From contig NZ_JAHXBG010000003.1 in NCBI RefSeq assembly GCF_020103725.1, positions 310,001 through 374,000 on the forward strand: 64,000 nucleotides of DNA, written 5' to 3'. This document shows, in pieces, positions 5,309-13,201 of this stretch (position 1 is its first letter; each line of letters opens with the position of its first letter). The notes under the pieces are model-generated. The model saw only the letters and a program-made list of their open reading frames with translations, made no database searches and was not told where the DNA came from. Origin of the DNA: Hyalangium gracile (lineage in GTDB: Bacteria; Myxococcota; Myxococcia; Myxococcales; Myxococcaceae). The position numbers were made by a program, and so were the translations under genes.

Positions 5309-6334
5309 TCAGCGAGGCGTGGGCTCGCTCGAGTCCTTCCGGGACTCGCGAATCCAGGACATCATCTCGCGAAGGCGCCGGCCCACGTCCTCGATGGGGT
5401 GCTGTCGGCCCTGCTCGCGCAGCTTGTCGAACATGGGGCGGCCCGCCTGGTTCTCGAGGATCCACTCCCGGGCGAAGGCGCCCGTCTGGATCTCCTTCAG
5501 CACCTTCTTCATCTCCGCGCGCACCTGCTCGTTGATGAGGCGGGGGCCGCGCGTGTAGTCGCCGTACTCGGCGGTGTCGCTGATGGAGTGGCGCATCCAG
5601 CCCATGCCGCCCTCGTACATCAGGTCCACGATGAGCTTGAGCTCGTGCAGACACTCGAAGTAGGCGCTCTCGGGCTGGTAGCCCGCCTCCACCAGCGTGT
5701 CGAAGCCCGCCTGGACGAGCGCCGTGACGCCGCCGCAGAGCACCGCCTGCTCACCGAAGAGATCCGTCTCGGTCTCCTCCTTGAACGTGGTCTCCAGCAG
5801 GCCCGCCCGCGTCGCGCCGAGCGCCCGCGCGTAGGACATGCCCAGGGCCCGCGCCTGGCCGGTGGCGTCCTGGTGCACCGCGATCAGCGCCGGAGTCCCC
5901 TTGCCCTCCTGGTAGAGGCGACGCACCAGGTGGCCGGGAGACTTGGGCGCGATGAGCAGCACGTCCACGTCCGCGGGCGGGCGGATCTGCCCGTAGTGGA
6001 TGTTGAAGCCGTGCGCGAAGAACAGGGCCTTGCCCCGCGTGAGGTGGGGCGAGATGTCCGCGTCGTAGATCTGCTTCTGGGTCTGGTCGGGCGCCAGGAT
6101 CATGATGGCGTCGGCCCACTGCGCGGCCTCGGCGACCGAGGTCACCTTGAGCCCCGCGGCCTCGGCCTTGCCTCGCGAGCGGCTGGCGGCGTGCAGGCCC
6201 ACCCGGACGTCGGCGCCTGACTCCTTGAGGTTGAGCGCGTGCGCGTGCCCCTGGCTCCCGTAGCCGATGATGGCGACCTTGCGGGCGCGGATGGGCTCGA
6301 GGGAAGCGTCCTTGTCGTAATAGATGCTCGTCAT
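5309..6334 (-). CDS. ilvC: Ketol-acid reductoisomerase (class I)
   Basis: Converts 2-acetolactate or 2-aceto-2-hydroxybutyrate plus NADPH to the 2,3-dihydroxy acids of valine and isoleucine synthesis. 341 residues, the normal class I length. The N-terminal Rossmann motif is [13 protein letters not shown]; the following SRSRGKA loop carries the Arg/Ser residues expected for NADPH. The C-terminal knotted domain shows [19 protein letters not shown] and the metal-site segments [17 protein letters not shown] and [13 protein letters not shown] eight bases before ATG at 6334 supports the start. It is the last gene of the ilvBNEDC run, 28 bp after ilvD, and its stop faces that of the barrel gene with no obvious terminator between them. 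Confidence 0.97.
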
Positions 6335-6362: not shown

Positions 6363-8063
6363 CTACGGAGAACGGGGAGGGAGCGGAGGCGGCCGCGTCA
6401 CGGCGCCCTCGGCGGCCGAGGAGACCAGGGCCGCGTACTTGGCGAAGACGCCCGAGGAGAACCGAGGCGGCGGAGGCCGGAAGCCGCGCAGGCGCTCGGA
6501 GAGCTCGGAGGGAGAGAGCGCCACGGAGAGCTGCCGGGCCTCCGCGTCGATGGTGATGATGTCTCCGTCGCGAACCGCCGCGATCGGACCGCCGACGGCC
6601 GCCTCCGGGGCCACGTGGCCCACCATGAGTCCGCGGGTGGCGCCGCTGAAGCGGCCATCGGTGAGGAGCGCCACGGAGTCGCCCAGCCCCTGGCCCACGA
6701 GCGCCGCCGTCACGCCGAGCATCTCGCGCATCCCCGGGCCGCCTCGCGGGCCCTCGTAGCGGATGACCACCACATCGCCGGGACGGATGCGGCGCTCCTG
6801 CACCGCGGCGAAGGCGTCCTCCTCGCGCTCGAAGACCCGCGCGGGACCTCGGTGGTACGGGCGCTCGTGCCCCGACATCTTCACCACGCAGCCTTCCGGA
6901 GCGAGGTTGCCGCTCAGGATGACCAGGCCTCCCGTGGAGCGGATGGGCTCGCTCAAGGGACGGATGACCCGCTGGCCCGCGGTCTCCGTGGCTCCCGCCG
7001 CGTGCTCGGTCCAGGTCCGCCCGTCGATGGTGCGAGCACTGCCCTCCAGGAATCCACCGGCCAGCATGCGCTGGGCGAGCAGCGGAACGCCGCCCGCGCG
7101 GTCCATGTCCACCGCCGCGAAGCGGCCCCCCGGCTTGAGGTCCGCCAGCAGCGCCGTGCGCCGGCTCACCCGATCGAAGTCCGCCAGGGACAGCGGCACG
7201 CCCACCTCTCGCGCCAGGGCGAGCAGGTGCAGCACCGCGTTGGTCGAGCCTCCCGTGGCCGCCACCGCCGCGATGGCGTTCTCGAAGGACACCCGCGTGA
7301 CGATGTCGCGAGGGCGAGCGCCACGCTGGAGCAGCTGCATGATCAGCCCGCCGACCGCGACGCTCGCCTCCTCCTTGCCAGGCGCCTCGGCGGGGATGGT
7401 GGTGTACCCCACCGGCGTCAGGCCGAGCAGCTCGATGGCCAGCGCCATGGTGTTGGCGGTGTACTGCCCGCCGCAGGCGCCTGCTCCCGGACAGGCGACG
7501 TTCTCCAGCTCGGAGAGCGCCTTCGGCGACATCTTCCCGGCCGACACCGCGCCCACGGCCTCGAAGACATCCTGGATGGTGACGTCCCGGCCCTCGTAGC
7601 AGCCCGGGGCAATGGAGCCGCCGTAGAGCACCAGGGAGGGCAGATCCAGGCGCAGCAGCGCCATGGCCGCCGCGGGGAGCGTCTTGTCACAGCCCACCAG
7701 CGCCACCACGCCGTCGAACATGTGGCCGCGGCACATCAGCTCGATGGAATCGGCGATGACCTCCCGGCTCACCAGCGAGGCGCGCATGCCGTCGGTGCCC
7801 ATCGTCACGCCATCGCTCACGGAGATGGTGTTGAACTCCATGGGCGTGCCGCCCGCGGCCCGGATGCCCTCCTTCACCTTGGCCGCCAGCCGGCGCAGGT
7901 GGAAGTTGCAGGGCATCGTCTCGGTCCAGGTGTTGGCCACGCCGATGATGGGCCGGGACAGGTCCTCGTCGGTGAAGCCAATGGCCTTCAGCATGGCGCG
8001 CGCGGGCGCGCGGCCGACTCCCTCGGTGATGGCACGGCTGTGGTGGCGCGGATCTCGGGTCAT
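6363..8063 (-). CDS. ilvD: Dihydroxy-acid dehydratase
   Basis: Iron-sulphur dehydratase producing 2-keto-isovalerate and 2-keto-3-methylvalerate, the step after IlvC. From ATG at 8063 the protein has 566 residues and begins [20 protein letters not shown], the usual IlvD N-terminus. Cluster cysteines are visible in [10 protein letters not shown] and in [16 protein letters not shown]. Other family blocks are [46 protein letters not shown] and [13 protein letters not shown]. The frame is open upstream to 8126, but that would overlap the end of ilvE and lacks the family start. The gap to ilvE is 35 bp. Confidence 0.97.
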
Positions 8064-8098
8064 GGGGGTTCCTGGAGGGCGGTTCTCGGGCGGGAGCG

Positions 8099-9019
8099 CT
8101 ACTTGCCGGGCACGTAGGTCAGCCACTCGGCGGAGCGCGGCAGCTCGCCTCGCACGGCCGACTGATAGGCCTGCTGGAGCTTCCGGGTGATGGGGCCCGT
8201 GCGGCCGCTGCCGATGGTGCGGAAGTCGATCTCGCGCATGCCGACGATCTCCGCGGCGGTCCCGGTGACGAAGACCTCGTCAGCCATGTAGAGCTGGTCT
8301 CGCGAGAGCGGCTGCGCGCTCACCTCCAGGCCCATCTCCCGCGCCAGGATCATCACCGTGTCGCGGGTGATGCCCTCGAGGATCTGCGCCTCGGGCGGCG
8401 TCATCAGCCGGTTGCCCTTGATGATGAAGAGGTTGGCGCCCGTGCACTCGGCCACCAGCCCCTGGGCGTCCATCATGATGGCCTCGTCGAAGCCCAGCCG
8501 GACGGACTCCGTCTTGGCGAGGAACGAGTTCGGATAGTTGCCGGCGATCTTCGCCTTGGTCATCGCCACGTTGGGGTGGTGGCGCGTGTACGAGGAGACG
8601 TTGGCCCGCACGCCGCGCTCGGCGGCCTCGGGACCGAGATAGGCGTTCCACGGCCACACGGCGATGCCCACGTGGGGCTGGCCGCCATCCAGGTTGAGGT
8701 TCCATCCTCCGCCCGCGAGGTAGATGAGCGGGCGCAGGTAGCACTCCTCGAAGCCGTTGGCGTGGACCGTCTCCTGGCAGGCCTCGATGAGCTGTCCCAC
8801 CGTGAAGGGCAGCTCGCGCCAGCCCAGGACCGCGGCCGACTTGTGGAGCCGCTCGATGTGCTCGCGCAGGCGGAAGATCGCCGGGCCGTTCACCGCGCGG
8901 TAGCAGCGGATGCCCTCGAACACCGCCATGCCGTAATGCACCGCGGGCGTCATGAAGGGCATCTGCACCTCGCCCCCGGCCATCATCTTCCCGTTCATCC
9001 AGATGTACTTGCAGTCCAT
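8099..9019 (-). CDS. ilvE: Branched-chain amino-acid aminotransferase
   Basis: PLP enzyme for the final transamination to valine, isoleucine and leucine. 306 residues. The family features are the substrate-side motif FEGIRCYRAVNGPAIFRLREH, the PLP-binding lysine segment AMTKAKIAGNYPNSFLAK, the EAIMMDAQGLVAECTGANLF block and the VTGTAAEIVGMREID phosphate-binding region, typical of class IV (IlvE-type) transaminases. ATG at 9019 has GAGAGG eight bases upstream. It lies third in the operon, 40 bp after ilvN. A D-amino-acid or 4-amino-4-deoxychorismate role is unlikely given the context and the EGIRCYR motif. Confidence 0.96.
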   Translation of the reverse strand: MDCKYIWMNGKMMAGGEVQMPFMTPAVHYGMAVFEGIRCYRAVNGPAIFRLREHIERLHKSAAVLGWRELPFTVGQLIEACQETVHANGFEECYLRPLIYLAGGGWNLNLDGGQPHVGIAVWPWNAYLGPEAAERGVRANVSSYTRHHPNVAMTKAKIAGNYPNSFLAKTESVRLGFDEAIMMDAQGLVAECTGANLFIIKGNRLMTPPEAQILEGITRDTVMILAREMGLEVSAQPLSRDQLYMADEVFVTGTAAEIVGMREIDFRTIGSGRTGPITRKLQQAYQSAVRGELPRSAEWLTYVPGK

Positions 9020-9059: not shown

Positions 9060-9605
9060 TCAGGCGGTGTGCTCCGGCGGGTCGGTCCTCGCGTCGAGCA
9101 GGTCCGTGAGCGCGGACTGGGCTCCGCGGGCCATCGCCACGGCGCCGGTGCGCACCAGCTCGATGATTCCGTGAGGGCGCAGCAGCTCGATGAGCCCGTC
9201 GATCTTGTCCGGCGTGCCGGTGAGCTCCACCATCACCGAGGCGGGCGTCACGTCGATGGCCCGCGCCCGGAACACCTCGCAGACCTGCAGCACGTTGGGG
9301 CGCGTCTTCTCGTCGGACCGGACCTTGATGAGCGCCAGCTCGCGCGCCACCGTCCCCTGGTCCGTCACCTGCTCCACGTAGAGGACGTTGATGAGCTTGT
9401 AGAGGTTGGCCTCGAGCAGGCGCGCCTCGCGGTCATCCGCCTCCACCACCAGCGTGATGCGCGAGATGGCCGGGCGCTCGGTGCGCGCCACCGTGAGCGA
9501 GTCGATGTTGTAGGCCCGGCGCCGGAAGAGCGAGATGACGCGGTTGAGGACGCCGGGCCGGTCCTCGACGTGGGCGATGAAGGTGTGTTGGCGGGAAGGG
9601 TTCAT
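9060..9605 (-). CDS. ilvN: Acetolactate synthase small (regulatory) subunit
   Basis: Regulatory ACT-domain subunit of acetohydroxy-acid synthase, needed for full activity and for valine feedback inhibition of IlvB. 181 residues, longer than the roughly 95-residue E. coli IlvN and similar to IlvH-type subunits. The N-terminal ACT domain reads HVEDRPGVLNRVISLFRRR..NIDSLTV; a second, C-terminal domain starts near residue 80 (LALIKVRSDEKTRPNVLQVCE). ATG at 9605 has GAGGAG seven bases upstream. The gap to the ilvB stop is 11 bp, which suggests coupled expression. Whether valine inhibits cannot be read from sequence. Confidence 0.95.
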   Translation of the reverse strand: MNPSRQHTFIAHVEDRPGVLNRVISLFRRRAYNIDSLTVARTERPAISRITLVVEADDREARLLEANLYKLINVLYVEQVTDQGTVARELALIKVRSDEKTRPNVLQVCEVFRARAIDVTPASVMVELTGTPDKIDGLIELLRPHGIIELVRTGAVAMARGAQSALTDLLDARTDPPEHTA

Positions 9606-9616
9606 GGCGGGGCTCC

Positions 9617-11443
9617 TCAGACGGCTCCACTGGTCCAGGGAGAGCTCCCGCCGGGCGCGCTGCCGGACGGAGGACGGCGGATCATGTCGTCCAGGTCCGC
9701 GCCCGCGGGCACCATCGGGTAGACGATGTCCTCCTGCTCCACCCGGAAGTCGATGACGGTGGTGCCGGGCTGGGCTCGCGCCTGCGCCACCGCCTCCGGA
9801 ATCTCCTCTCGCCGGGTGACGCGCAGGCCGTTCAGCCCGTGCGCCTCGGCGAGCTTCACGAAGTCGGGGTTGCGCAGCGCGGTGGCGCTGTAGCGGTTCT
9901 CGTAGAAGAACTGCTGCCACTGCCGCACCATGCCCAGGTAGCCGTTGTTGATGATGGCCACGTGGACCTTGATGCCCTCCTGGGCGCAGGTGGACAGCTC
10001 GGCCGCCGTCATCTGGAAGCCACCGTCCCCCACCACCACCCAGAGCTCGTCGTCGGGCCGGGCGAAGCGCGCGCCAATCGCGGCCGGCAGCGCGAAGCCC
10101 ATCGTGCCCAGGCCTCCCGAGGTGATGAGCTGCCGGGGGCGATCGTGCCGGTAGTACTGGGCCTCCCACATCTGGTGCTGGCCCACGTCGGTGACCATGA
10201 GCGCCTTGCCCTGCGTCAGCCACCACAGGTCATGGATGACGTGAGCGGCGTAGAGCCGGCCGTTGTGCGGCAGGTACTGGATGTCTCGCACCGCCGAGTC
10301 GCCCTTGAGCGCGCGGATGTGCTCCATCCACGGGGTACAGGTGCGCCGCTGGATGCGCGGGAGCAGCCGGGTCAGCGTCCGGCGTAGATCTCCCACCAGC
10401 CCCACGTCCACCTTGACGTTCTTGTTGATCTCCGACGGGTCGATCTCGATGTGGATCTTCCGGGCCTTGCGCGCGAACGTCTTCAGGTTGCCCGTCACCC
10501 GGTCGTCGAAGCGCATCCCCAGGGCGATGAGGAGGTCCGACTCCTGGATGGACGTGTTCACCCAGGCCTCGCCGTGCATGCCCATCATCCCGAGGCTGAG
10601 CGGGTGGGTCGCCGGGAAGCCGCCCAGGCCGAGCAGCGTGCTGGCCACGGGGATGCCGGTCTTCTCCACCAGCTCCATCAGCAGCGGCGCGGCCTCGGCC
10701 TTGAGCACGCCATGGCCGGCGAGGATGAGGGGCCGCTCGGCGGCGGCGATGAGCTCGGCGGCGCGGGCCAGCTCATCCTCGGAGGGTTGGTGCTCGGGAC
10801 GGTAGCCGGGCAGCCGCACCGGCCGGGCCCGCCAGTCGTCCTCGGTGGAGGCCTGCTGCGCGTCCTTGGTGATGTCCACCAGCACGGGCCCGGGGCGCCC
10901 CGAGCGGGCGATGAAGAACGCCTCACGGAGGGTGGGCGCGATGTCCTCGACGCGCGTGACGAGGTAGTTGTGCTTGGTGATGGGCAGGGTGACGCCGGTG
11001 ATGTCCGTCTCCTGGAAGGCGTCGCTGCCGAGAAGCGTGGAGGAGACCTGCCCGGTGATGCAGACGATGGGCGAGGAGTCCAGCATCGCCGTGGCGATGC
11101 CCGTCACCAGGTTGGTCGCTCCCGGCCCCGAGGTGGCCAGGCACACGCCCACCTTCCCCGAGGCGCGCGCGTAGCCGTCCGCCATGTGCGCCGCGGCCTG
11201 CTCGTGGCGCACGAGCACGTGGCGGGCCGAGCGCTGATGCATGGCATCGTAGATGGGCATGATGGCCCCACCCGGATAGCCAAAGACGACGTCCACGCCC
11301 TCGCTGGCGAGGACGTCCCAGACGATCTCGGCGCCGGTGCGTCTGGCCGCGCCGGAGGTGCGCTCCGGGGCGGGGGCTCCCAGCGGAGCACCGGGTTCCA
11401 TTTCAGGCTGTGTGGCCTTCGGGCCTGCTCCAGGTTTCGTCAT
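9617..11443 (-). CDS. ilvB: Acetolactate synthase large (catalytic) subunit
   Basis: ThDP- and FAD-dependent condensation of pyruvate with pyruvate or 2-ketobutyrate, the first common step of branched-chain amino-acid synthesis. About 608 residues from ATG at 11443. That start is chosen over GTG at 11455 because GGAGG lies five bases before the ATG. Catalytic glutamate region: VFGYPGGAIMPIYD..VRHEQAAAHMADGYARA. FAD region: LGLGGFPATHPLSLGMMGMHG. ThDP motif: VVGDGGFQMTAAELSTCAQE then IINNGYLG. The first 35 or so residues are a Pro/Ala-rich extension. It is the first enzyme gene of ilvBNEDC and is read through the attenuator-like leader described at 11484-11700. Confidence 0.97.
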   Translation of the reverse strand: MTKPGAGPKATQPEMEPGAPLGAPAPERTSGAARRTGAEIVWDVLASEGVDVVFGYPGGAIMPIYDAMHQRSARHVLVRHEQAAAHMADGYARASGKVGVCLATSGPGATNLVTGIATAMLDSSPIVCITGQVSSTLLGSDAFQETDITGVTLPITKHNYLVTRVEDIAPTLREAFFIARSGRPGPVLVDITKDAQQASTEDDWRARPVRLPGYRPEHQPSEDELARAAELIAAAERPLILAGHGVLKAEAAPLLMELVEKTGIPVASTLLGLGGFPATHPLSLGMMGMHGEAWVNTSIQESDLLIALGMRFDDRVTGNLKTFARKARKIHIEIDPSEINKNVKVDVGLVGDLRRTLTRLLPRIQRRTCTPWMEHIRALKGDSAVRDIQYLPHNGRLYAAHVIHDLWWLTQGKALMVTDVGQHQMWEAQYYRHDRPRQLITSGGLGTMGFALPAAIGARFARPDDELWVVVGDGGFQMTAAELSTCAQEGIKVHVAIINNGYLGMVRQWQQFFYENRYSATALRNPDFVKLAEAHGLNGLRVTRREEIPEAVAQARAQPGTTVIDFRVEQEDIVYPMVPAGADLDDMIRRPPSGSAPGGSSPWTSGAV

Positions 11444-11483
11444 TTGCGCCTCCACGGCGGACCGCGTGTGGATTGAGGACGCC

Positions 11484-11531
11484 GAAAAACGAAAACCCCG
11501 CCACCGTTTCCGGGGCGGGGTTTTTCGTTTC
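11484..11531 (-). terminator. Attenuator terminator hairpin in ilvB leader
   Basis: On the minus strand an uninterrupted 11-bp stem joins 11514-11524 to 11492-11502, extended by CG and AAA/TTT pairs after one bulged base. The loop has 11 bases (11503-11513). The downstream arm runs into TTTTCGTTTTT, an intrinsic-terminator tail. It lies 41 bp before the ilvB start and 29 bp after the leader-peptide stop, the classic position of an attenuator. The stem is nearly symmetric, so it could also end transcripts from the plus strand, but no plus-strand gene ends here. Confidence 0.85.
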
Positions 11532-11572
11532 GGCCTGGGTGGGGTGATTCAACCAGGTGTCAAAACGGTGGC
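11500..11572 (-). promoter_or_regulatory. Putative antiterminator pairing for ilvB attenuator
   Basis: Minus-strand bases at 11572-11563 (GCCACCGTTT, the last three codons of the leader peptide) are perfectly complementary over 10 bp to 11509-11500 (AAACGGTGGC), which is the terminator loop plus the first three bases of its 3' arm. The two structures exclude each other. A ribosome that reaches the leader stop codon at 11562-11560 would cover the first strand and let the terminator form. A ribosome stalled in the Val/Leu run upstream would leave it free to block termination. This is read from sequence; the mechanism is inferred from E. coli ilvB and ilvGMEDA attenuation. Confidence 0.7.
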
Positions 11573-11700
11573 CCGCTCCCGTGAACGACGAGCAGCACGG
11601 CTACCAGCGCTACGCGAACGAAGCCCTGCACGCGCGAGACCGCACCGCGGCACGTCGCCGGGTGCTGGGTGAGCTCGATGCGGGAGGAGAAGTTCGTCAT
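11560..11700 (-). CDS. ilvB leader peptide (attenuation control peptide)
   Basis: A 46-codon ORF, ATG at 11700 to TGA at 11562-11560, between the operon promoter region and the terminator. Residues 27-40 read FVRVALVAVLLVVH: six Val and three Leu in the twelve residues 28-39, with codons GTT, GTA, GTA and GTT that are uncommon in this GC-rich genome. A peptide with a Val/Leu run is the hallmark of the E. coli ilvB leader. AAGGGA seven bases upstream is a plausible ribosome binding site. Its end overlaps the antiterminator strand. It would act in cis through ribosome position; the peptide itself needs no function. Confidence 0.82.
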   Translation of the reverse strand: MTNFSSRIELTQHPATCRGAVSRVQGFVRVALVAVLLVVHGSGPPF

Positions 11701-11812
11701 GGCTGCGTCCCTTCATCATGCGTCAACTGTCACGGCGAGTGCAAATCGCTCGACCGCTCTCGGGGTTTTCCCCAGCACACGCCGTCCGCGGCCCCAGAGG
11801 GGACGAACGCTC

Positions 11813-13201
11813 ATGGTACGGTCCACGCGCATGAGTGCGGACCTGTTGGGTGACCTCGCGGCCGTGCTGCCACCCGCTGGACTCGTCACCGACGCCGATG
11901 TGCTCGAGGCGCATCGCCGGGACCAGGCCTCGTGGGCGGTGGCAGGCACTCCGCGCGTCCTCGTCCGCCCGGCCTCGACGAGCGAAGTCCAGGCCGTGCT
12001 CCGGGTCGCCTCCGCCCATCGGGTTCCCGTGGTCGCCCGAGGCGCCGGGTCGGGGCTGACCGGCGGAGCCAACGCCGTGGACGGCGGCATCGTCCTCTCG
12101 CTCATGAGGATGAACCGGATCCTCGAGCTGGACCGCCGAGGGCTGTTCGCCGTCGTCCAGCCCGGGGTGCTCAACGCCGCGGTCAAGGCCGCCGCCGCCG
12201 AGCAGGGGCTCTGGTACGCGCCGGATCCCGCGAGCTGGGAGTTCTCGAGCATCGGCGGCAACCTCGCCACCAACGCGGGCGGCCTGTGCTGCGTGAAGTA
12301 CGGCGTGACGGGAGACTCCGTGCTGGGCCTGGAGGCCGTGCTCGCGGATGGCTCCGTCGTCCGCACCGGCGGCCGCACGCACAAGAACGTGGCCGGTTAC
12401 GATCTCACCCACCTGTTCGTCGGCTCCGAGGGCACGCTGGGCATCATCACCGAGGCCACGCTGCGGCTCCGGCCACGCCCGCCTCCCGCCACGACGCTGG
12501 TGGCCTCCTTCCCGACGCTCGTCGCGGCCGGCGCGGCCGTCACGGAGATCATGGCCAGCACCCGCCCCTCGCTCCTGGAGCTGATGGACCGCGCGACCGT
12601 CCGCGCCGTCGAGGCGCACCGTCCCATGGGGCTGGACGTCGACGCCGCGGCGCTCCTGCTGGCGCGCTCCGATGCCGGAGGAGACCAGGGCGTCGCGGAG
12701 TGCACGCGGATGGCCGCGGCCTGCGAGGCCGCCGGAGCCACCTTCCTCGCGCAGTCCGCCGACGAGGCCGAGGGGGAGCTGCTGCTGGGCGCGCGCCGCC
12801 TCGCCTACCCCGCGCTGGAGAGACAGGGGAGCACACTGCTGGATGACGTGGGCGTCCCGCTCTCGCGCATCGTGGACCTGCTCGCGGCCGTCGAGCGCAT
12901 CGCCGAGCAGCGCGGCGTGCTCATCGGCACCTTCGGACATGCCGGTGACGGGAACATGCACCCCACCCTCGTCTTCGATCGGAATGATCCGGATGCCGTC
13001 GCGCGGGCCCAGGCGGCGTTCGACGACATCCTCCTCGTGGTAGGCGAGCTGGGCGGGACGATCACCGGAGAGCATGGCGTCGGCCTGCTCAAGCGTCCCT
13101 ACCTGGCCCGGCAGCTCGGCCCCGAGACGACGCGGGTCCACACGGCCATCAAGGCGGCGCTCGATCCGCTCGGCATCCTCAACCCCGGCAAGCTGCTCTG
13201 A
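11813..13201 (+). CDS. FAD-binding oxidase, GlcD/D-2-hydroxyacid dehydrogenase type
   Basis: Flavin-dependent oxidation of a 2-hydroxy acid such as glycolate or D-lactate. About 462 residues. The PCMH/VAO FAD domain occupies the N-terminal half: VARGAGSGLTGGA, SSIGGNLATNAGGLCCVKYG (the Gly/Asn FAD-binding stretch) and LFVGSEGTLGIITEATLRL. The C-terminal cap has HAGDGNMHPTLVFD and GEHGVGLLKRPYL, followed by the usual NPGKLL ending of GlcD-type proteins. ATG at 11813 has GAGGGG ten bases upstream; ATG at 11831 is an alternative without a visible site. Divergent from the ilv leader. No GlcE/GlcF genes follow, so a single-subunit D-lactate-dehydrogenase-like role is as likely as glycolate oxidase. 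Confidence 0.9.
   Translation: MVRSTRMSADLLGDLAAVLPPAGLVTDADVLEAHRRDQASWAVAGTPRVLVRPASTSEVQAVLRVASAHRVPVVARGAGSGLTGGANAVDGGIVLSLMRMNRILELDRRGLFAVVQPGVLNAAVKAAAAEQGLWYAPDPASWEFSSIGGNLATNAGGLCCVKYGVTGDSVLGLEAVLADGSVVRTGGRTHKNVAGYDLTHLFVGSEGTLGIITEATLRLRPRPPPATTLVASFPTLVAAGAAVTEIMASTRPSLLELMDRATVRAVEAHRPMGLDVDAAALLLARSDAGGDQGVAECTRMAAACEAAGATFLAQSADEAEGELLLGARRLAYPALERQGSTLLDDVGVPLSRIVDLLAAVERIAEQRGVLIGTFGHAGDGNMHPTLVFDRNDPDAVARAQAAFDDILLVVGELGGTITGEHGVGLLKRPYLARQLGPETTRVHTAIKAALDPLGILNPGKLL

Follow-up and report, generated by a model that had tools for sequence, protein, structure and literature searches.

The window analysed here, a 64,000-nt stretch of the Hyalangium gracile genome (positions 310,001 to 374,000 of contig NZ_JAHXBG010000003.1), carries on its minus strand an ilvBNEDC operon headed by a short leader ORF. 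Each of the five genes downstream of the leader, named as in the original prediction, scores over its NCBIfam cut-off, and translation of the ORF bears out a 46-codon leader with six Val and three Leu in residues 28 to 39, as had been described from the sequence.

5309 to 6334, minus strand: ilvC, ketol-acid reductoisomerase (TIGR00465, over cut-off)
6363 to 8126, minus strand: ilvD, dihydroxy-acid dehydratase (TIGR00110, over cut-off)
8099 to 9019, minus strand: ilvE, branched-chain aminotransferase (TIGR01122, over cut-off)
9060 to 9605, minus strand: ilvN, acetolactate synthase small subunit (TIGR00119, over cut-off)
9617 to 11443, minus strand: ilvB, acetolactate synthase large subunit (TIGR00118, over cut-off)
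11560 to 11700, minus strand: leader ORF of 46 codons with an in-frame ATGACG start, encoding the peptide MTNFSSRIELTQHPATCRGAVSRVQGFVRVALVAVLLVVHGSGPPF
11584 to 11619, minus strand: regulatory run, leader codons 28 to 39, with six Val and three Leu and with rare GTT/GTA Val codons
11714 to 11721, minus strand: -10-like block GCATGATG, a GCAT block of a putative promoter
11741 to 11747, minus strand: -35-like block (GATTTGC) of presumed function, only partly conserved in 12 aligned leader upstream regions

Thus a short ORF whose codon run specifies the amino acids made by the biosynthetic operon lies 5′ of that operon, and 116 nt separate the leader stop codon from the ilvB start codon (11443) on the minus strand. 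GCAT is present upstream in 11 of 12 aligned leaders (nine before ilvB and three before leuA; see below), the exception being L145, and the in-frame ATGACG occurs in all 12 leaders compared by a script that looked for ATGACG or ATGACC. A consensus-rule scan upstream of the leader returned no consensus sigma-70 site. Transcription likely starts above the leader, at a promoter proposed from the conserved blocks. A divergent ORF on the plus strand (11669 to 13201), related to glycolate oxidase GlcD at a score below the NCBIfam cut-off, may share the intergenic promoter region with the leader.

Between the leader ORF and the first gene, folding places a terminator and several further elements.

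11484 to 11491, minus strand: U-rich tail of the terminator, CGTTTTTC, read from the sequence
11492 to 11524, minus strand: intrinsic terminator stem-loop, from folding
11526 to 11532, minus strand: 3′ strand of the helix AT2, CGAAACG, with one two-sided pair change
11534 to 11557, minus strand: AT3, a hairpin just 3′ of the leader stop codon, from folding
11561 to 11567, minus strand: 5′ strand of AT2, CGTTTTG, in the last leader codons and stop, from folding and pair counts

The terminator has an 11-bp stem (AAAACCCCGCC/GGCGGGGTTTT), then a bulged U and CCG-GAAA-CGG; both sequence and folding agree with the 11-bp core stem and T tail first proposed. The RNA of 11470 to 11700 (minus strand) has a folding z-score of -3.0, with 1 of 200 dinucleotide shuffles equally stable. 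A rule-based terminator scan, which asked for a loop of 3 to 8 and apparently allowed no bulge, did not list the minus-strand terminator and returned two overlapping plus-strand sites in the same near-palindrome, against 0.6 expected; the segment from 11484 to 11524 also resembles a terminator when read on the plus strand. AT2 was discarded as a strongly supported helix, as it fell below 5% against shuffled spacers in only 2 of 10 loci tried; one of its pairs has a change on both sides. Together with R2 (below), a small hairpin offers an RNA-based alternative to explaining the Pro-Pro of the leader tail as a stall motif.

To place the leader among its relatives, 145 genomes of the window's order were searched for IlvB, and 45 of them match at E <= 1e-100; the 18 of these loci with an IlvB identity of at least 70%, the window included, are called order loci here. 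Before ilvB, all 18 possess a leader ORF that contains a V/L/I run and terminates in G-x-G-P-P-x-stop, and the leader, the terminator and the competing helix R2:R3 described below recur in every one of them. Because it recurs with the same end at all 18 orthologous ilvB loci, the leader is more than a chance ORF; a failure of conservation in relatives, which the original prediction had named as telling against it, was looked for and not seen. Of the 27 matches below that identity, 12 were scanned (L019 to L030), and none shows such a leader within 500 nt before ilvB. A further 80 named loci of other genomes were scanned for at least 7 V/L/I per 12 residues within up to 500 nt (less at contig ends), with L031 to L049, L066, L073, L077 and L088 scanned additionally at at least 6 per 12. 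By eye, seven of the 80 were accepted as leaders (L033, L034, L036, L037, L039, L049 and L077), and L033, L039, L049 and L077 have a common GGGTGCGGCGG-type leader end (GAGTGCGGCGG in L049). L034, which lies on the same contig as L015, and L111, in which no leader was recognized by eye, were omitted from every count; the 22-locus counts of z-scores, duplexes, masking and codons also exclude L036 and L037, whose pairing strand follows the stop codon.

The nearest named IlvB relatives come from Sorangium and from Myxococcales and Myxococcota MAGs, as well as from Chloroflexi and Acidobacteria. Short V/L-rich ORFs before ilvB in the Chloroflexi/Acidobacteria records L053, L067 and L097 are possibly unrelated leaders. 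This type of IlvB is patchily distributed: within the genus, five of seven genomes have it, and of the remaining large genomes listed, G047 and G073 to G075 alone do. Repeated loss in predators would be consistent with that pattern. In the window's leader tail the first Pro codon (11569 to 11571) is CCA, which makes up 1 of 113 Pro codons in four ilv genes; CCA is that Pro codon in 8 of the 18 order leaders, the window's included, and in the three leuA leaders.

The element that competes with the terminator consists of two strands.

11572 to 11581, minus strand: R2, antiterminator strand in the last leader codons, CGGGAGCGGG, identified by R3 pairing in the partial fold and by the synonymous control
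11511 to 11519, minus strand: R3, inner part of the terminator 5′ arm, CCCGCCCCG, the partner of R2

In the window, CGGG[A]GCGGG pairs with CCCGCCCCG, the A being bulged from R2. In the more distant of the 18 order loci the last leader codons, GGG TGC GG(G/A), copy the 3′ side of the terminator and pair with its 5′ arm. When the RNA is folded only to the end of the 5′ arm, the leader end pairs with the arm in all 20 loci printed; in the same partial folds the pairing strand of L036 sits just after the stop codon, and L036 and L037 appear to represent a variant with the strand GCGGGGACCAG directly 3′ of the leader stop, folded for L036 only. R2 is the best leader partner of R3 in 20 of 22 loci; in the other two, L039 and L049, R2:R3 is poor. 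Folding z-scores range from -2.1 to -5.5 across the 22 loci. The original prediction of an antiterminator strand in the last leader codons probably holds, while the partner that it assigned, the loop and 3′ arm of the terminator, is replaced by the 5′ arm (11511 to 11519) as the conserved one.

Applied to the 18 order sequences, RNAalifold gives seven predicted pairs, every one of them in R2:R3. One position is U-A in nine sequences, G-C in seven and mismatched in two, and there the other arm of the terminator changes too, giving a three-strand change that is perhaps a single event. This is the one two-sided pair of R2:R3 across the 18 loci, a number that shuffles reach in 498 of 500 cases. 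Over the same loci 92.2% of R2:R3 cells are paired, against 41 to 69% for slid versions of the helix. By these comparisons the antiterminator is conserved and exclusive with the terminator, with only one compensatory pair. When the last seven codons of 21 leaders were recoded synonymously, between 0 and 7% of trials per leader reached the observed stability of the partial fold; taking only the R2:R3 duplex, the fraction was 0.7 to 11.5%, exceeding 5% in 8 of the 21. One codon table, that of the window's four ilv genes, was applied to all loci in these controls. Since recoding so seldom matches the observed pairing stability, the GxGPP peptide tail is probably to a large extent a side effect of RNA pairing.

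Masking by a translating ribosome was calculated with 12 nt covered past the A-site codon, a value taken from an excerpt of PMC4833913, and with A-site positions counted in nt before the end of the leader stop codon. For RNA reaching the end of R3, R2:R3 forms at A-sites -57 to -39 (4.5 to 10.9 expected pairs) and is zero at A-sites from -24 onward, in 22 of 22 loci. The switch falls where the runs end, their last BCAA codons being at about -30 to -24. At this transcript length alone, stalled and terminating ribosomes give opposite structures in all 22 loci, and the modelled masking appears to agree with the earlier proposal that translation to the stop codon would cover the antiterminator strand and a stall in the run would free it. 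With the full terminator out and at equilibrium, the window has 10.0 terminator pairs and 0.0 R2:R3 pairs whatever the position of the ribosome; the terminator likewise or mostly prevails in L002, L003 and L009, and the outcome is mixed in L004 and L005. Three bases short of the full terminator, the window has 9.0 and 8.9 R2:R3 pairs (A-sites -45 and -39). Because the complete terminator wins at equilibrium in the window, the model needs kinetic trapping of R2:R3.

In attenuators of the E. coli trp type a protector helix (1:2) gives termination without translation, although such a helix is not obligatory for attenuators. The window has none by calculation: without a ribosome it shows 8.9 expected R2:R3 pairs and 0.0 upstream pairs. 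R2:R3 exceeds upstream pairing in 18 of 22 loci under these conditions, with upstream pairing prevailing in L009, L014, L033 and L049, and an untranslated leader here would therefore read through, unlike the trp leader.

The partner first proposed for the leader end lies elsewhere in the terminator.

11500 to 11509, minus strand: loop and 3′ arm of the terminator, exactly complementary to 11563 to 11572; the pairing is not common to most relatives

This 10-bp complementarity is exact as claimed, and one extra G-U pair extends it to 11 bp. That 11562 to 11572 pairing with the loop and 3′ arm (11500 to 11510) is the main antiterminator is, in our judgement, unlikely, although a few loci, the window among them, speak for it. 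The helix reaches 11 bp in both L001 and L002 but 9 bp in L004, with bare-helix energies of -17.4 (L001) and -17.0 (L002), and synonymous recodings seldom match it there (0 of 1000 trials in L001, 0.2% in L002 and 2.4% in L004). Its duplex in the window is slightly stronger than that of R2:R3 (-19.9 versus -18.0), and it would serve for ribosomes stalled at the last Val codons, a position that masks R2. Beyond these loci the helix falls away: it is uninterrupted over at least 9 bp in only three of the nine closest loci, being interrupted in L003 and L005 to L009, and in the nine distant order loci its duplex amounts to -9.8 to -13.4, against -18.2 to -24.7 for R2:R3, with remnants of 7 bp in L011 and of 8 bp, in another register, in L015. 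At least 29% of synonymous recodings equal or exceed its strength in 7 of 10 loci tried, and one of its special codons, TTT, is also accounted for by AT2. Its formation requires part of the 3′ arm to have been transcribed already, and in masking calculations on six of the nine closest loci, at six codon positions and three transcript lengths, only the combination of A-site -27 with the shortest length takes it past two expected pairs (5.0 in L001 and 6.5 in L004), the maxima in L003 and L002 being 1.6 and 1.4. Pair counts in the nine closest loci do not separate the two helices (89.9% of cells paired for R2:R3 and 85.9% for the other). Covariation, suggested beforehand as a check on the alternative helices, came to the single two-sided pair of R2:R3 over the 18 loci, with no two-sided change in either helix among the nine closest. 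Interrupted in six of these, weak in the distant loci and little formed under masking, the helix was rejected as the shared antiterminator; it is possible that it is a local addition in L001, L002 and L004.

We return to the R2:R3 attenuator and the amino acid that it would sense. Among Val codons in 30 gene calls of the window, GTA accounts for 1.0% and GTT for 2.2%; A/T-ending Val, Leu and Ile codons are termed rare here. Rare codons make up 89 of 235 V/L/I codons in the leader runs and 110 of 2600 in ilvB of the same 22 loci, a contrast for which a pooled p-value overstates independence, the loci being related; in single-locus tests the excess is non-significant in 3 of 22 (L011, L012 and L014). 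The window's run has four rare codons, all of them Val. The codon bias favours the sensing of BCAA-tRNA charging that had been suggested, and the "Val/Leu" of that suggestion is best narrowed for the window, given that the rare codons of its run are all Val.

A covariance model built from the 18 order loci was run on 195 genomes of the phylum. At E < 1e-7 it finds 21 places, the 18 used in training and three new ones in G077, G079 and G082. These three untrained copies (L143, L144 and L145) lie directly before leuA, followed by leuC, with leuD and leuB recognized behind them by eye only. Their leaders end GAGPPF, and the terminator switch is that of the ilvB leaders. When 30 leuA loci were scanned upstream of the gene, leaders turned up in three, the ones already located by the covariance model; leuA matches came from 45 genomes. 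In the genomes with leuA copies the leu genes lie apart from ilvB; in G047 and G073 to G075, leuA lies about 1.6 kb behind ilvB. Four weak matches were inspected by eye. L146, L147 and L149 were discarded, having no V/L/I run followed by a terminator. The match in G160 (L148; E = 0.017), a distant genome from a different family within the phylum, consists of a leader rich in V/L with the end GCGPP, then, by eye, a terminator, with ilvC and a LeuA homologue behind it.

The leuA and leuC genes are absent above the NCBIfam cut-off from the window genome (81 contigs, completeness 100) and are found above it in 3 of 7 genomes of the genus; keeping ilvBNEDC without them, the window genome has a predicted leucine requirement. 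The rare codons of the three leuA leaders are 16 Leu and 2 Val, and those of the ilvB leaders of G000 and G080, which have no leuA over the cut-off, 1 Leu and 8 Val (Fisher p = 0.0002, the leaders being few and related). In the three genomes with leuA copies, the rare codons of the ilvB leaders are mixed (8 Val, 10 Leu and 1 Ile), and the nine distant order leaders have rare Leu and Ile codons and no rare Val codon. Because of these mixed and Val-free leaders, the notion that specificity is retuned by shifting rare codons is suggestive only. A wider reading would see a Myxococcota-wide attenuator family copied among ilvB, leuA and ilvC operons, with the antiterminator strand encoded in the last leader codons, RNA pairing thereby fixing the GxGPP tail, and rare codons retuning specificity (Leu in leuA copies, Val in the ilvB leaders of genomes that have lost leu genes); we hold it tentatively, at a little short of an even chance.

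These data also bear on whether the leader senses amino acids at all. Its BCAA codons might be translated and yet not act as charging sensors, control being exerted by general translation, Rho or RNA stability instead. A precedent comes from Streptomyces, where, according to the excerpt of PMC1262725, changing candidate ilvB leader codons had no effect. In the loci studied here, the enrichment of rare codons, the leuA copies rich in rare Leu codons, the presence of a terminator and the register of R2 to the codon run all argue against it, and we consider such a leader improbable. Still less probable, to the point of being hardly credible, is an RNA that senses a ligand or a tRNA with the ORF being incidental. 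T-boxes, which are tRNA-sensing RNAs, were considered under this heading, together with a ppGpp riboswitch and others. A class of ppGpp riboswitches controls BCAA genes in other bacteria, as excerpts of two papers report (PMC8632094, PMC10272879). In the window and 20 relative loci, however, none of the leader, riboswitch and T-box families of Rfam 15 matches at its gathering threshold, and the conserved core of the element is coding. The best weak match in 11400 to 11800 is Thr_leader, at 24.1 bits against a threshold of 55, and on these sub-threshold scores the Rfam families were rejected as the identity of the element. The ilvB-OMG motif is among the Rfam families.

The reading that we prefer, with a probability of roughly 85% and on evidence that is entirely computational, is that the ilvBNEDC leader region is a ribosome-mediated transcription attenuator with R2:R3 as its antiterminator. 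The idea of attenuation that senses BCAA-tRNA charging appears well supported by the comparison across the 18 order loci. The parts and their conservation, the exclusive helices, the masking geometry, the codon bias and the independent copies before leuA and ilvC are computed results; for events in the cell, namely coupling, stalling, kinetic trapping of the antiterminator, termination and promoter activity, we infer the following course. RNA polymerase would start just upstream of 11700, with the leader translated right behind it. If charged Val-tRNA were short (sensing in the window genome would be mainly of Val, judged by the rare codons), the ribosome would stall in codons 28 to 36 and partly in 37 to 38, leaving R2 free to pair with R3 as soon as R3 emerges; the hairpin just past the stop codon would sit between the two strands. 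R2:R3 would then hold off the terminator, and ilvBNEDC would be transcribed. With Val-tRNA plentiful, the ribosome would reach the stop codon and cover R2, R3 would pair with the 3′ arm, and transcription would end.

The mechanism is classical, and the conserved element matches no Rfam family checked. The ilvB(N) and ilvGMEDA leaders of E. coli have a BCAA-rich leader peptide, a terminator and a competing helix, and the leader described here resembles them in all of these and in preceding the same kind of genes. It differs from the E. coli ilv leaders, set beside it by general description and not by direct comparison, in that its antiterminator strand lies within the last leader codons, no Rfam family matches it and most loci have, by calculation, no protector helix. 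Both E. coli leader attenuators are named in an excerpt of PMC1183508. Among the literature examined, the closest experimental parallel is the ilvBNC attenuator of C. glutamicum, a leader uORF with the control codons CUU (Leu) and GUA (Val) in the excerpts of PMC11857589 and PMC10272879. It likewise lies before ilvB, CUU and GUA are also enriched here, and in both systems terminator and antiterminator share a strand, which, compared by description only, is a GCC trinucleotide in C. glutamicum and about nine bases here. The ilvB-OMG, ilvB (Leptospira) and ilvB-II motifs also have a BCAA-codon-rich uORF before ilvB (PMC10272879, PMC8632094); in contrast, our 21 sources have no Rfam match, and a GxGPP tail goes unmentioned for those motifs in the excerpts of these papers. 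In actinobacteria, leader ORFs precede both ilvB and leuA, as they do here, and the leuA LEU element may fold as a pseudoknot or a hairpin, with Leu codons pairing with the Shine-Dalgarno box of leuA (excerpt of PMC1262725); the leuA copies found here differ in using the same terminator switch as ilvB. Among the literature matches listed, none describes a myxobacterial ilv or leu attenuator, although comparative surveys might include a delta-proteobacterial case.

If the R2:R3 attenuator is confirmed, one more phylum would have conserved leader-peptide attenuators, and a ready RNA family would be at hand for annotation. It would also provide a natural test of whether rare codons set the amino acid sensed, based on ilvB and leuA leaders paired within one genome and on a comparison of genomes that have leu genes with those that lack them. 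According to an excerpt of PMC13293253, BCAA auxotrophy is common among myxobacteria, the auxotrophs drawing BCAAs from lysates of their prey, and control of what remains of the BCAA pathway would therefore bear on the physiology of predation.
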